The position numbers and the translations under genes are program-made. The notes beneath the pieces are model-generated. The model made no database searches, was not told the origin of the DNA, and was given only the letters and a program-made list of their open reading frames with translations. From a virus, in the IMG/VR virus record IMGVR_UViG_3300046532_001378, positions 1 through 21,642 of that record: a DNA stretch of 21,642 nt. One strand, 5' to 3'. The first letter of the stretch is position 1. Each line of letters opens with the position of its first letter. Below are positions 3,515 through 10,326 of the stretch, piece after piece.

Positions 3515-5422
3515 TTAAGTTGAAGACATAACAAAATTAGAAGATACTGCAAAGAGTTCTTTTAATCCTCCTACATCTGTATTGTTATCTGTCTGCATTG
3601 CTACTGTGACGTAGTATCCTTTTATCCCTGTAGTAGGTGCAGCTGTATTGGGATCTCCATTCCAAAAAACTACTTCCTCTTGTTGAATTTCACTAGCATT
3701 TATTAAAGGAGCTACATATCTATTTTCTTTTCTATTAAAACCAGATCTGTATTTTTCTCCTTGATATTCATATCTCCCTTCTTCATAACTAACAATAGTA
3801 TTTGTTTTATCATTAAAAACTCTCCAATTTGTAGCATATGTTAATGGATCAGTATAAGTAGCTATTGGATTTTGACAAAACCCAGTTTCATCACTTATAT
3901 AGCTCATAACTTCCCATCCACTACTTCCTTCATAACTAATAGTTTGAAAAGACTTAATCATAGAAATATCAGGATTAAATATAAAAGTTATTTGAGATGG
4001 AGTATAAGATTGATCATAAAAATACCCTCGATTTTCCGCAGTTGTAGAATTGTAATAATGAGACCAAAGTTGCCAATCTGGACTAGAATAAAATACATTC
4101 TTCAAACTACACATGACTATAGGTTTATAATCATAGAAACTAACCCATCCATTTATATTTTCATCAAAGTTAAGAGTGGAATATTGAGTTTCTGGATTAC
4201 AACTATTCTGTATATTAGTAGGTTGTAAAGATAAAGTATAACATCTATTATGTATATCCCATCCTCCCACTATTTTGTCTTTAACGCTATATTTAACTTT
4301 TAAAGATGTAGGCCAAAATTCTATAAGCTCAAATGTAGGATCACCATTGTGACCAATAGGTCTACTTAAAGTTATAGTACAACTTTCTCCTGTTGTACCT
4401 ATAATATAAGCTCCTGTTGATTCCCAAGATCCTGTAGGTGTTTCCATATAAATTAAAGAACCCGGTTCTAAAATACAACAATCGCAATCTGTGCCTAATG
4501 ATAAAGTAATTTTATTAGTTCCTCCCGCAAAGTTACTAACAAGTGTCCCTGGAGGTGGAAAGACTAATTGAGCTGTTAAAGTTATTTCAGATGGATCAGT
4601 ATTTATTTCTTTTAAACTATCTCTAAAGAAATCTTTCATTCCATATTCAGAAATTTCTGTAATACCATCTCTAGATAATCGTCCTATTACTCCTCGGTTT
4701 TGATCTGCAAAATATTTTTGAAATCCAAAAGTAGCAAATGATTCAGGGTTTTTACTAATACCGAATTCTCCTAAGTAAGGCACTATTTGACCTATTACTA
4801 CATTAGATTGAGTTTGCATTGGAGAACCTTCAGCGGAATATACCGCATCTTTGTCTATTAATGCTTTTTGTACTTTATCTTCTTGAAATATATTTAAGTT
4901 AGTATTTTCTGCAAAAAGTTTTTGAATAGAACCATAAGCTGGATTTAAACTTTTAGTTATATCTTCGGCTATTGAAAACATATTAGTATTATTAATTCCA
5001 GTTCGTGAATTATATATACCAGAATATATTAAAGAACTTCCTCTATGTTCTTGCTGGCTAATGTCTTGAGTTGTATATGCTCGTTCTCCTAAACTAACAC
5101 TAGTATTATTATATCCTCCTCTAATTCTACTTTCTTCAATAAACCACTGTCGTTCTTCTCCTATTCCATCAGGACGCCCCGTGATTGGGTTTTGATTATT
5201 TATATAAGCTCCATTCCAAGGCCATATTGGATATCCAGCAGGTTGCCACGGTAATCCAGGCCAAGTTGGTAAAGGTTCAGAACTAAATCTATCACTTACT
5301 CCATCGTTTCCTGCTTGTACCTGAGCATTTACAGTAGCGGGATCATTTAATGGTGGAGCTTGCGCTACCACTTTCTTCATCCAAAACGAGTTAAAATATT
5401 TTACGTTATGTGCGTATGCCAT
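3515..5422 (-). CDS. 635-residue phage structural protein, partner of the tail hub
   Basis: The N-terminal 75 residues are Pro/Trp-rich (for example LPTWPGLPWQPAGYPIWPW). Residues 90-270 form a conserved-looking core containing IEESRIRGGYNN, LIYSGIYNSRTG and GRLSRDGITEISEYGMKDFF, which I associate with tail or hub proteins of marine podoviruses. Residues 275-400 look β-rich. Residues 415-515 include NFDENINGWVSFY and SYEGSSGW, also recurrent in such proteins. A DCDCC cluster lies at 312-316. The gene follows the 1622-residue hub protein by 35 bp. The alternating strands and turn-rich stretches suit a β-propeller or tail-hub fold. The protein may assemble with the larger one, or represent a domain that is fused to it in related phages. 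Virion role is fairly sure; the exact position in the particle is not. Confidence 0.8.
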   Translation of the reverse strand: MAYAHNVKYFNSFWMKKVVAQAPPLNDPATVNAQVQAGNDGVSDRFSSEPLPTWPGLPWQPAGYPIWPWNGAYINNQNPITGRPDGIGEERQWFIEESRIRGGYNNTSVSLGERAYTTQDISQQEHRGSSLIYSGIYNSRTGINNTNMFSIAEDITKSLNPAYGSIQKLFAENTNLNIFQEDKVQKALIDKDAVYSAEGSPMQTQSNVVIGQIVPYLGEFGISKNPESFATFGFQKYFADQNRGVIGRLSRDGITEISEYGMKDFFRDSLKEINTDPSEITLTAQLVFPPPGTLVSNFAGGTNKITLSLGTDCDCCILEPGSLIYMETPTGSWESTGAYIIGTTGESCTITLSRPIGHNGDPTFELIEFWPTSLKVKYSVKDKIVGGWDIHNRCYTLSLQPTNIQNSCNPETQYSTLNFDENINGWVSFYDYKPIVMCSLKNVFYSSPDWQLWSHYYNSTTAENRGYFYDQSYTPSQITFIFNPDISMIKSFQTISYEGSSGWEVMSYISDETGFCQNPIATYTDPLTYATNWRVFNDKTNTIVSYEEGRYEYQGEKYRSGFNRKENRYVAPLINASEIQQEEVVFWNGDPNTAAPTTGIKGYYVTVAMQTDNNTDVGGLKELFAVSSNFVMSST

Positions 5423-5424
5423 AA

Positions 5425-5449
5425 TTTATAATTACATGTATTTATAATT
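5425..5449. repeat. 9-bp direct repeat around ACATGTA in an intergenic leader
   Basis: TTTATAATT occurs at 5425-5433 and 5441-5449, separated by ACATGTA. It occupies most of the 35-bp gap just upstream of the 635-residue gene. It could be a promoter or operator element for the downstream tail genes, or chance in AT-rich DNA. I see no clear Bacteroidota -7 element (TAnnTTTG). Confidence 0.3.
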
Positions 5450-5457
5450 CTTTAACT

Positions 5458-8400
5458 TTACGCCCAAGGAGTACTGTCAAGAGTTGGGAATGTATTGGTT
5501 TTGTGGTTATTAACTACAAATGGACATGCTACTACAAGAGGTATATCCCATTCATAATATAATCCTACCCCAGATGGTATTTGAGTAGCTGGAGAACTAG
5601 GATAAGGATTAGTAATTGCAGATCTATCAGTAACTCTAACTGTTACAACATATCTTCCTGGAGGAATTGGATGATCATAATCTACAGGCCAAGGCATAGT
5701 ATTAACTCCTTTACTAACTAAAAACCCGAAATTATTAGTATAATCAGGAACAGGTGCATTGTTTGTCCATGTCTCGAAAGAAGGACTTGCTAATCCAGGA
5801 TTAACAAATGCATTATTACCTCCAATTCCTAGAGAAGGATCTGGTAAAAAACTACTCCAATCAAAAGATGCTTGTTGTAATGACACTTCATATTCACCAG
5901 GTGCCGTATCAACTTTAACTTCATTAACATAATAAAATCCCCATTTTGGATTTGGTGAGAAATCTGTTGTTACTCTAATATTTCTCATATCTGGATAATC
6001 AACGGCTGCAGCAGTTAAATCTGTCCAATAATGAATTCTTCCTGTAGCAGGAGTCATATATCTTTGTCCCACTACGTTTTCTCCAGCCCCTAATCCATTG
6101 TAATCTTGAGGATCTAACGTACCTGTAGCTGAATATTCAAAATCATAATATACTGGACCGGGTACTGGTATTCCAAAGTGTCCACCAAACGAATACGTGT
6201 CTTGTATAGTAGTTCTATCGTCTTCATAATTATAAATAGCTGGAGCTAATCTTTTGGTCATTGCTACTTCTCCAAATACAATTTCTCCTCTAAATTTCAT
6301 CTCCATATCACATAAATGGCTGTCCTCGTTACAAGGATCAGCTCCATATATTAATTGAGGATTACCTTCTTGAAACATAGGAACTTCGAAAAATGCACTT
6401 ACTTGATATGCTCTAGGCACGCTCCATACTAACTCTTGACCATGATTAGGGTTTCTAGGGAAAATATTACCAGGTGAACCATACGCGCCATTAGCTGCTT
6501 TTAACTGGCCATTCCATCGTGGAGTTAATCCTGTAGCTTGAGGATCGTTCATTGAAGCAAATGCTGAGCCAGTATACATTCCATAATCTGTTGTACAACA
6601 TGGACCTATCTTTGTTCCACCCCATGACGACCCATTACAATTAATATGTCCACACCAACATGTATAATCATATTGATTTCTGTATTGCATATCTGAAGTG
6701 CTTAATGAGAACGTATCACACTGTTCGTAACAAGCTCCTTCCCATTCATTTTCTGGAGTAAAAAAATCACCATTTGCACACCAATCGCCAGTTCCACAGC
6801 ATCCACAATTATCTGCATAAGTAATGTCGCTATAACTAACCATAGAAGGAGCAAACTTTACATTGCCCGTCCAAGGATCATAAGGTTTCCAAACATTTTC
6901 CATAGGAAATGCACAATCCCATAAACTTTGCTTAGTATCCCAAGGAGGTGGACTACTTGGGAAATAATATGTTTCTCCTTGTAGTGGAGCAGCGTTTTGA
7001 ACTGTTGCAATCTTTGTTACCGTAAAATTTTGGGCTTGAGAAGAACCAATAGCTGGACGATTAACTTGAAAAGTAAAATTATAAATTCTTCTATCATCAT
7101 CAGCCCATGCTAAGAAATATCCATGTGGATCGTTAGCAGTTTTTAATTGATATTCATTTAATGGTAAAATTTGCTCAAATTGAAATTTATTCATCACGTT
7201 AGTAGAAGGATCTGCATTAGTATATACTCCAATTAATGCTATAGTAGTTTGATTTATAGGATCACATAAGTTAGTACCATTAGCTGCGATAGCACAGAAA
7301 GTTCCAGAACATATAGTATTAGGCGCTTGACTTTCTATTAAATCTATACTTGGGTCTTGAATATCAGTGGGAATAGTATTATCTACATTGATAATATTGA
7401 AGTTTAAATCATCAATCAATCCGCTAGTAGAAGTTTCCCAATATATATCTAAATTAGAAATTACAGGCGAAGTTTCATATATAGATAAATAAGGTACCAT
7501 TCCTAAATCTGATAGTGCTTGATCAAACATTGGCCACCCTATTTGTTTTTTAGTGGAGAGTTTAGCTACGAGAGGATCAGTAGATCCATTATAAAAATGA
7601 ATAGGAATACAAGTAGCTAAAGAAGTAGGATAAGAAGTTGGTTTATTTGCAGCATTAACTACGCCCGCTTGCGCATTAACACCTAAATTTAATTCTAGTA
7701 GATTACCTATCACAGGAACAGTGTCAGGTATAACGCCCGGGTTATAGTTTCTATTATAAGAAGTCCAGCTAGTTCCGCTTAGATTTGCTTTTACATTTTC
7801 TACTCTACCAAAGAGCTTAACTTCACTTCCAAAAAGTTTTTGAGTAGGACCTGGATCTTCCATGTTCCTTGGAACTTTATTTATATTATCTCCTGTTAGA
7901 ACTGTAAAAGCCGTAACCGCATCATCTCCTTGTGGATAATTTATAGAACTTATTGCACCACTTTCATTAACAGCTTCTGTATATCCTACTATAAAATGAG
8001 GCCATCCTGCTAACATACCAGGTAAATATACATTATAATAGTCTTGTTGAGTCTGCTTTACTACAATTTTCCAGCTATACCACCCCAATGTATTTTGATC
8101 TCTTAGTGTTACAGCACGCCCACCGCTAGTAAAACCTTGAAACTCACATCCAAGAAGTGCCATACCGGTATCATTAACTATACTAATTATTGGTTCATTC
8201 TCTTGCCATGTATTATCACTGCTTATTACTACCATACTATCCCAGTTTAATGAACCACTGCCATCATCCTCGATATTTATAATTGCAGTAGATCCAAAGG
8301 CACCAGTAATAGTCAGTGTCCAAGAACATATTTTTGGGCAAAAAGGAGGGTAACAACCCCACCCGCTACTAGTTACATCTACTAACCCAATTAAAGTTCC

Positions 8401-10326
8401 GTTGTTTTGCTGATATAATCCTGGATAACCTTCTTTGTCTATAGTTTTAGGAATAACATCATGCCATGTCATGGTTATCATGTCTCCAGGCCAAGTATCG
8501 GTTGAAGTTATTATACCATTTTGAGAATTTCTGTAATCATGGAAAATAGTACTACCATATCCTCCTAGAGATTCGCTATATATACTTGATAGAATAACAT
8601 CTGATTGTCTACCATATCTATCACTTAATATTACTCCTACTTGATAGGTTCTGTTTTGTTTAACAGTATGGTTTTGATATTCTTTTCTTACAAAATCTTC
8701 CTTAGGTTCGTCTGCTACTGGAATTATAGGTTTTTCATTTATTGAAGTAACATAAGCTAATCTATCAGGAGAAGTATGTTTATCAATATAATTACCATAC
8801 ATTATTCTATTACCACTTGCTTCTTGCGCCAATGCTCGTATAGGAACTTTATCATAAACACGTAATAACGTAGAAGCTGGAAGAGTTTTCCAAGGTTCTC
8901 TAGATTGATAATCATAATTGTAAAAATCTGAAGTTAAATCATCAAATTCACTGGCTTCTATTGTATCTAATATATACGCAGTATTACTTTCTGAATCTTT
9001 ATAAATTATATCTATTTCTATTACTTTAAGCGTATTCCCTAAAGTGTCATAATCAATTCTATTATTATCAACAGAAGCACAAGGGATTTGTAATCCAATG
9101 TTTTGAATCTTATTCTCAAAAAAATCTACAATAGTACTATCATAAGCTCTTCCTTCGTCTCCTAATAAAGTAGTGGAAACATCTTGCACAATGTTTGGTG
9201 GAGCTACACCAGTGTTTAAAACGGGAGGAGTTACAGTTGGTAGATTATTATTAATAAAATACCCATCTTGTTTAGGAACAAAACACGCTTGAGTAAACGG
9301 AGCTAATAAAGAATATTCTCCATCATCAAATTTATATCTATAACTAAATCTAACAAATTTATCACTCAAAAAATTCTTATCTCCTGGCCAAGCAGCATCA
9401 TATAGTGGATTTGCAAAACTAAAGTAAATTAAATCTCCTTCTGCTAATGTTTGACCTTGATCTACTACTACGGTTGTACTACCTACTGGTGTATCAGGAG
9501 TGACACTAGTTATTAAAACATTATTACCTACAATATTTGGTCCCCCAGCTTTTACTCCTGGCTCTAAATTAGTATATACTCCTTCCAATTCAAAACTCAA
9601 TCCTCCTGATGGAACATCAATTTCTCCCACACAATAAACAGGTAAATATGGATCTGTTACATTTTCCATTGTAGACTTCCATTGCTCTGGTGCTGATGTT
9701 TTTTTCAACAAAGATATACACTCGAAAGGATAATACTTTGCTACTGAAATATGATCTTCATCTGTATAATACCCAGGCGCGCCATTTAAAATAAAAGGAC
9801 TATTTAAGGCTGTGTTTATGTTTATTTTTCTAGGTTGATTTCTATTATCTGTCCAAAATAATAAATCTTCTATTACATTTACTCCAGTAATAGGGTAATT
9901 TTTTGCAAAGTTTAGAAAATCACCACCTACTAATAATCCTCCAGTGTTATTAATTGCATCAAAATATGCAATGTAACTATTGTGAGCAGAAGAAGACGGA
10001 GTTATTAGTCCACTTGAGGAGTTTACTCCAGTGGTATTATTTGCTAATGTACTAGGAGAGTTATCTGTATAGTCTGTTATAAAAAAATAAATTCGGTCTC
10101 TGTCTTGATCTACAAAGTGCCCAATAATATCAAATGCACAATCATCTAGTTCAAAGCTAGTAATGAAATTTGTACCTAAAACATTTTCTAATGCTCCCAC
10201 ATCTGCAGCATCGGATCTACTAATTGAAACATTTTTACCGAATCTGTATTGTCCATTAGGAATTATTCTACCATCTAGATCTTGATTCATCTTAGACTGA
10301 ATAAATGTATTTTTTACTTCTGCCAT
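5458..10326 (-). CDS. 1622-residue tail hub/'muzzle'-type protein (P22 gp10-like stabilisation role inferred)
   Basis: This is the largest gene of the window. The N-terminus (NTFIQSKMNQDLDGRIIPNG, then ENVLGTN at 47-53) has a form I recognise from tail hub or stabilisation proteins of crAss-like and marine podoviruses. Short β-rich segments follow, for example IGHFVDQDRDRIYFFITD and EDLLFWTDNRNQPRKINI at 153-170, suggestive of propeller blades as in P22 gp10. The centre is rich in Asn, Thr, Gly, Trp and Tyr and has no membrane segment. Residues 1174-1244 hold 11 cysteines, unusual for a phage structural protein, with two more at 1332 and 1339. The gene starts 4 bp after the 413-residue ring-type gene, without Shine-Dalgarno. 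The protein would sit at the outer end of the connector and gate DNA exit, or hold fibres. A receptor-facing function for the Cys-rich part is possible but unproven. Confidence 0.82.
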   Translation of the reverse strand: MAEVKNTFIQSKMNQDLDGRIIPNGQYRFGKNVSISRSDAADVGALENVLGTNFITSFELDDCAFDIIGHFVDQDRDRIYFFITDYTDNSPSTLANNTTGVNSSSGLITPSSSAHNSYIAYFDAINNTGGLLVGGDFLNFAKNYPITGVNVIEDLLFWTDNRNQPRKININTALNSPFILNGAPGYYTDEDHISVAKYYPFECISLLKKTSAPEQWKSTMENVTDPYLPVYCVGEIDVPSGGLSFELEGVYTNLEPGVKAGGPNIVGNNVLITSVTPDTPVGSTTVVVDQGQTLAEGDLIYFSFANPLYDAAWPGDKNFLSDKFVRFSYRYKFDDGEYSLLAPFTQACFVPKQDGYFINNNLPTVTPPVLNTGVAPPNIVQDVSTTLLGDEGRAYDSTIVDFFENKIQNIGLQIPCASVDNNRIDYDTLGNTLKVIEIDIIYKDSESNTAYILDTIEASEFDDLTSDFYNYDYQSREPWKTLPASTLLRVYDKVPIRALAQEASGNRIMYGNYIDKHTSPDRLAYVTSINEKPIIPVADEPKEDFVRKEYQNHTVKQNRTYQVGVILSDRYGRQSDVILSSIYSESLGGYGSTIFHDYRNSQNGIITSTDTWPGDMITMTWHDVIPKTIDKEGYPGLYQQNNGTLIGLVDVTSSGWGCYPPFCPKICSWTLTITGAFGSTAIINIEDDGSGSLNWDSMVVISSDNTWQENEPIISIVNDTGMALLGCEFQGFTSGGRAVTLRDQNTLGWYSWKIVVKQTQQDYYNVYLPGMLAGWPHFIVGYTEAVNESGAISSINYPQGDDAVTAFTVLTGDNINKVPRNMEDPGPTQKLFGSEVKLFGRVENVKANLSGTSWTSYNRNYNPGVIPDTVPVIGNLLELNLGVNAQAGVVNAANKPTSYPTSLATCIPIHFYNGSTDPLVAKLSTKKQIGWPMFDQALSDLGMVPYLSIYETSPVISNLDIYWETSTSGLIDDLNFNIINVDNTIPTDIQDPSIDLIESQAPNTICSGTFCAIAANGTNLCDPINQTTIALIGVYTNADPSTNVMNKFQFEQILPLNEYQLKTANDPHGYFLAWADDDRRIYNFTFQVNRPAIGSSQAQNFTVTKIATVQNAAPLQGETYYFPSSPPPWDTKQSLWDCAFPMENVWKPYDPWTGNVKFAPSMVSYSDITYADNCGCCGTGDWCANGDFFTPENEWEGACYEQCDTFSLSTSDMQYRNQYDYTCWCGHINCNGSSWGGTKIGPCCTTDYGMYTGSAFASMNDPQATGLTPRWNGQLKAANGAYGSPGNIFPRNPNHGQELVWSVPRAYQVSAFFEVPMFQEGNPQLIYGADPCNEDSHLCDMEMKFRGEIVFGEVAMTKRLAPAIYNYEDDRTTIQDTYSFGGHFGIPVPGPVYYDFEYSATGTLDPQDYNGLGAGENVVGQRYMTPATGRIHYWTDLTAAAVDYPDMRNIRVTTDFSPNPKWGFYYVNEVKVDTAPGEYEVSLQQASFDWSSFLPDPSLGIGGNNAFVNPGLASPSFETWTNNAPVPDYTNNFGFLVSKGVNTMPWPVDYDHPIPPGRYVVTVRVTDRSAITNPYPSSPATQIPSGVGLYYEWDIPLVVACPFVVNNHKTNTFPTLDSTPWA
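6595..6807 (-). other. Cysteine-rich segment of the tail hub protein
   Basis: Residues 1174-1244 contain Cys at 1174, 1176, 1177, 1183, 1199, 1203, 1223, 1225, 1230, 1243 and 1244. Several are in CxCC, CxxxC and CxC spacings. This could be a metal-binding or disulfide-knotted domain inserted in an otherwise Cys-poor protein. No named zinc-binding family is evident to me. Confidence 0.7.

Follow-up and report, generated by a model that had tools for sequence, protein, structure and literature searches.

The DNA analysed here, a virus record of 21,642 nucleotides called the window, carries phage structural genes as a module on its minus strand and encodes a crassvirus-type muzzle in two genes. 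The product of the first gene, P1, which the first-pass annotation had labelled a tail hub protein, is the N-terminal chain of this muzzle, the gatekeeper of the tail tip, as identified by its match to crAss_MUZ and by the gp44 profile. Beyond the part common to other muzzles, P1 continues into a long variable extension that contains a cluster of eleven cysteines. The two-gene muzzle outranks this cluster in interest, the cluster alone being local variation. The features of the window are the following:

5458..10326, minus strand: P1, N-terminal chain of a crassvirus-type muzzle, 1622 aa (crAss_MUZ, phrog_14478, gp44 profile)
7435..7476, minus strand: motif ETSPVISNLDIYWE, P1 residues 951-964, the last block common to single-chain muzzles before the extension (alignment)
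5461..7434, minus strand: C-terminal extension of P1, residues 965-1622, 658 aa, with the cadherin/Ig-like domain and the cysteine cluster (length beyond the conserved motif)
6982..7392, minus strand: predicted cadherin/Ig-like beta-sandwich, P1 residues ~979-1115, directly before the variable stretch (AlphaFold2, Foldseek, VIA-align)
6577..6996, minus strand: hypervariable stretch around the cluster, P1 residues 1111-1250 (alignment to nearest relatives)
6595..6807, minus strand: cysteine cluster, P1 residues 1174-1244 (11 Cys in 71 residues)
5423..5457, minus strand: gap between the P1 and P2 genes, 35 bp (ORF coordinates)
3515..5422, minus strand: P2, C-terminal chain of the muzzle, 635 aa (crAss_MUZ_C, phrog_14478)
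5363..5422, minus strand: N-terminal motif of P2, MAxx..VKYFNSFWMKK (common to two-gene relatives)
4379..4486, minus strand: CxCC...C segment of P2, Cys 313, 315, 316 and 348 (conserved in nearest relatives)

A muzzle encoded in two genes

The P1 ORF translates unbroken over its 1622 aa. Residues 8-171 match crAss_MUZ (PF25731) with 33 bits for a Pfam cut-off of 27, P1 matches phrog_14478 at 1.7e-47 over profile positions 1-185 of 1474, and a profile made from the N-terminal 220 residues of P1 and four named relatives retrieved the crAss001 muzzle gp44 (PDB 7qok) at 4e-5. P2 matches crAss_MUZ_C (PF25729) with 40.8 bits (cut-off 27) and covers positions 939-1096 of the 1474 in phrog_14478, a part separate from that of P1. 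Because the ORF that follows P1 is the C-terminal part of the muzzle, the window muzzle is encoded by two genes. The one-polypeptide form known from crAss001 is thus not found here, the two ORFs being 35 bp apart, and the Pfam models do not require a single chain.

The crAss001 structure paper (PMC10172136) describes the muzzle as a hexamer at the tail tip that gates the tail, its distal (crass) domain being assigned to cell-surface contact. The N-terminus of P1 matches crAss001 gp44 (PDB 7qok, 7qol, 8ckb) by profile, and single-chain relatives align with the C-terminal region of gp44 with 99.6% probability in a profile comparison. By contrast, gp44 consists of a single 1371-aa chain whose 10 cysteines are scattered and form no cluster, whereas the window has chains of 1622 and 635 aa and an 11-Cys stretch in the extension.

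Gene order around P1 and P2, including the upstream structural genes, is that of phi38:1, the elemo phages and ctfjg026, which encode the muzzle in a single ORF (1324-1551 aa). Among the matches listed, the virion structural protein gp097 of Cellulophaga phage phi38:1 and the Flavobacterium elemo homologues, which are syntenic with the window, are 26-30% identical to P1 residues 1-580, and they are 33-40% identical to the P2 core; they differ in being single chains of 1324-1493 aa with 3-6 cysteines. The muzzle homologue of Cellulophaga phage phi18:3 (gp114/gp115; L193 6262-11829) likewise lies in two genes, both annotated from virion MS/MS. Its break is however further downstream than that of the window, near P2 residue 416, and therefore represents a separate break. 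Phages phi38:1 and phi18:3 are assigned to Pervagoviridae and Pachyviridae, and the order name Crassvirales does not accompany these family names.

Related loci were drawn with profiles of the conserved ends, as the best 80 of 592 and the best 80 of 550 confirmed candidates. Among the 166 best-match loci, 107 are split, 22 have a single ORF, 34 have the N part only and 3 the C part only; these loci include duplicates (L086 and L171 in G001, L087 and L173 in G002, L050 and L117 on the same contig), and L171 was scored as split with its first chain interrupted by a run of N. In all but six of the 107 split loci (101), -1 to 60 nt separate the two genes; L007 and L076, with 502 and 458 nt, depart from this usual range. 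In the same 107 loci, the motif ETxPxxSxLDIYWE is present in P1 in 104 cases, and 105 have a YFNSF-like motif close to the start of P2 (residues 1-25), with a consensus of roughly MAxxxEVKYFNSFWLKK.

The single-chain relatives L061, L062, L063 and L145 run without interruption from an LDIYYE-type motif through an (S)STSGLI-like strand to a YFNTF-type motif, over ~20-35 residues. At this junction in the window, the extension and a stop stand between LDIYWE-TSTSGLI and M..VKYFNSF. As these four single chains continue directly across that point, the extension is inserted at the break, where 658 residues stand in place of ~20 residues of the single-chain relatives. Other single chains (L075, L077 and L085) are longer at the junction, with 99-143 residues. 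In a global profile alignment of low confidence, the junction falls at about gp44 residues 925-950, between two insertions that build the crass domain. Insertions in the IG2 and crass regions are reported in the crAss001 paper (PMC10172136) to vary muzzle length among crassviruses and to alter the surface of the distal domain.

A tree of the P2 core, which places the window beside G002 (82% identity), requires four changes between the split and the single form, indicating that this trait changed more than once. The single-chain L145 is placed among the two-gene relatives in this tree and is possibly a re-fusion. No mention of a two-gene muzzle was met in the crassvirus literature searched, which consisted of partial texts and lay outside most subscription journals.

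A variable extension of P1 with clustered cysteines

Past the ETxPxxSxLDIYWE motif, P1 has 658 residues, and the two-gene relatives among the best-match loci have 31-992 (median 445). Identity with the nearest relatives is ~60% over P1 residues 350-560 and 801-1000. At residues 1171-1250, it amounts to 12 of 55 aligned residues for G001, 11 of 54 for G002 and 15 of 59 for L089, with 21-26 gaps, and conserved blocks (RAYQVS, PPGRYVVT) return downstream of the variable stretch. In the multiple alignment, the cluster cysteines are kept in one of 11 cases in G001, none in G002 (one by pairwise alignment) and one in L089; G002 has five cysteines of its own in the variable stretch, and L089, L179 and L180 have a lone Cys pair there. 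The low identity, the many gaps and the lack of the cysteines in the relatives show that the cluster region is a variable loop and not a conserved domain. Judged from these alignments, the cluster is lineage-specific local variation within a known tail part. The first-pass annotation had proposed a metal-binding or Cys-knot domain and had named Cys conservation among homologues as one check; with at most one of the 11 cysteines kept in each nearest relative, this check went against such a domain.

Searches with the Cys stretch alone detected no relatives in viral contigs or plasmids, and 18 pattern matches in genome contigs with none confirmed. Scanning viral contigs for close relatives with the whole of P1 or with a 301-aa Cys region as query gave nothing; comparison at the DNA level gave short chance matches only (16 records, 4-6% of the query), and comparison at the protein level one chance match (E 9). 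The PDB sequence search with P1, with the Cys region and with the P2-core profile returned nothing significant, and neither Pfam (up to E 5) nor PHROGs contained a family matching the Cys segment. The crAss-like phages use diversity-generating retroelements on tail fibres, according to PMC12386605. Such an element was considered here and rejected: no repeat copy overlaps 6595-6807 among the 20 listed of 22 direct families and the 6 inverted pairs, and the ORF family matches include no reverse transcriptase, a weak indication given that the window is only a fragment.

The part of the extension that precedes the variable stretch could be modelled. An AlphaFold2 model of P1 850-1622 (26 sequences) gave pLDDT values of ~76-94 for residues ~979-1115, for which Foldseek returned 8egw_B as best match (E 2.8e-4). 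Against viral models, Foldseek returned nothing at E 0.001 or better. VIA-align Z scores to cadherin repeats were 7.6-8.8 among the matches listed, where values below 8 can reflect a common arrangement only. The fold thus predicted is similar to that of cadherin repeats (PDB 8egw, 5tfm), with identities of 6-19% among the matches listed, the likeness being one of fold alone and at a level that may reflect a common arrangement. The Cys stretch had pLDDT values of 31-37 in this model, and a second AlphaFold2 model had a mean pLDDT of 27.9 overall; the structure prediction suggested by the first-pass annotation therefore yielded no confident fold for this stretch in either model.

The cysteines of the cluster occupy P1 positions 1174, 1176, 1177, 1183, 1199, 1203, 1223, 1225, 1230, 1243 and 1244. 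Their number and place, as first annotated, are exact, and in 3000 shuffles of the protein the maximum per 71 residues averaged 4.5 and never exceeded 9, so that none reached the 11 observed. The surrounding protein is not Cys-poor as had been thought, since the other 1551 residues of P1 include 17 Cys (1.1%), compared to a family median of 0.435%. When the extensions from 100 two-gene muzzles of the best-match loci are compared, the P1 cluster has the top Cys density, the runner-up reaching 8; among 146 homologous ORFs of at least 500 aa, the sole other with 11 Cys in 71 residues is L068, whose repeat is of a different type. TGT codons encode 26 of the 28 cysteines of P1 and 10 of the 11 within the cluster, and the GC content of the cluster segment is matched or exceeded by ~1/10 of equal-sized stretches of the P1 gene. 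Codon use and GC being ordinary for this gene, there is no sign of a foreign or mis-read patch at the cluster.

Cysteine enrichment is a property of the extensions as a group. After removal of relatives, 68 of the 100 extensions of the best-match loci remained and 67 were compared, the window being excluded: the median Cys content was 0.78% in the extension and 0.29% in the muzzle core, and the extension was the higher in 52 of the 67 representatives (p 1.3e-8). The extensions are also richer than the core in Gly, Trp and Phe and poorer in His, Met and Tyr. Cys-rich modules of quite different kinds occur elsewhere in the muzzles of L068, L084, L004 and L165, among them GCxDPxAxNxNPxAxxDDGSC repeats in the single chains L068 (starting at residue 2559) and L084 (starting at residue 1673). 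In Pfam, the Cys module of one relative matched HCV_env (E 0.041), a score under the cut-off that was taken as chance.

Disulfides, metal and neutral change

We consider it unlikely that the cysteines lack any special chemistry and arose neutrally in a glycine-rich loop that evolves fast. This explanation would agree with the lack of conservation of the cluster cysteines and with the lack of relatives of the Cys stretch in genome contigs, viral contigs and plasmids. It also fits the Cys counts of the extensions, which show no excess of even numbers (33 of 61 nonzero counts with relatives removed, p 0.61); the raw figure of 62 of 96 looked suggestive but included zeros and related sequences. 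However, no shuffle reproduced the density of the cluster, and an enrichment across the extensions is not readily produced by drift alone.

It is quite unlikely that the Cys stretch binds zinc or another metal and that this keeps the loop stable within the reducing cell. The CxCC and CxC spacings of the cluster could suggest ligands, and P2 has a CxCC...C...C set of its own, conserved in the nearest relatives: G001, G002, L089 and L054 all keep Cys 313, 315, 348 and 408, three of them also keep Cys 316, and L103 has none of these cysteines. Against this, the cluster segment contains a single CxxC (1174-1177) and a single His, paired CxxC/CxxH ligands are absent, the segment belongs to no Pfam or PHROG family, and nearly all of its cysteines are missing from the nearest homologues, so that the conserved metal-binding or Cys-knot domain first proposed is not upheld. 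The extensions moreover are depleted in His, and CxxC is not enriched in them over shuffles (4 observed, 3.4 expected). Being locally conserved, unlike the P1 cluster, the P2 set is the stronger candidate, whether for a metal site or for fixed disulfides.

Disulfides in the P1 Cys stretch are plausible by analogy with other phages. It had been argued that disulfides are rare in phage structural proteins, which is not generally true: disulfides between hub and ring proteins stabilise the crAss001 tail (PMC10172136) and an extensive disulfide network locks Agrobacterium phage Milano (PMC10811340). Among Cys spacings of 0-14 residues in the extensions, C-x4-C is the strongest (9 against 3.7 expected; as high in 2 of 300 shuffles, with 15 spacings tested). 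The lack of an even-number excess speaks against disulfide pairing within each extension, as does the odd number of cysteines in the cluster, although free or inter-chain cysteines would blur this signal. That the P1 cysteines and the conserved P2 cysteines form inter-chain disulfides stapling the muzzle after release is very improbable: CxCC-type cysteines on both window chains and the inter-protein disulfides of the crAss001 tail (PMC10172136) would fit, but the Cys contents of extension and P2 are uncorrelated (rho -0.06, p 0.57, for 96 pairs of the best-match loci, from which L087 and L171, identical rows, truncated ORFs and rows lacking the motif had been taken out), P2 chains are mostly near Cys-free (median 0.17%), which means that most two-gene muzzles cannot rely on such a staple, and G001 and G002 retain the P2 set and not the P1 cluster.

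A model of the muzzle tip

The reading that we prefer, and to which we give even chances, is a two-chain muzzle with a lineage-specific Cys loop in a surface extension, held by disulfides after release and helping host contact. In this lineage, a single surface position would be the point at which the muzzle chain was opened. There the first gene would go on to encode a long extension that diverges rapidly and includes a cadherin/Ig-like domain, and the second gene would restart at the strand where single-chain relatives go on. The 11-Cys stretch would most likely project from the tail tip, have its shape held by disulfides that form after the virion has left the cell, and help to contact the host surface. 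By analogy with crAss001, an added variable module at the position of the gp44 crass domain would most likely contact the host. The host-contact surface put forward by the first-pass annotation thus stands by inference, as the variable region appended at the tail tip adjoins the part assigned to cell contact in the crAss001 account (PMC10172136), but a conserved domain does not. The cluster is probably a lineage-specific surface loop, braced by disulfides, on a swappable host-contact module.

More tentatively, and with more doubt than belief, one may imagine, throughout a large phage lineage, a tail gate made from two chains in which the break, placed precisely at one point of the surface, turns the P1 C-terminus into a docking site that exchanges whole cadherin-like, Cys-rich host-contact modules. 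The tip could then be re-tooled with the gate undisturbed, and in the window the module would be disulfide-locked after release.

Taken together, these results describe a crassvirus-type muzzle that recurs in two-gene form, its second chain restarting at a conserved motif and its first carrying a variable, Cys-enriched extension. The named relatives infect Cellulophaga and Flavobacterium, and the extension is a concrete place to seek the determinants of tail-tip host recognition in this group.
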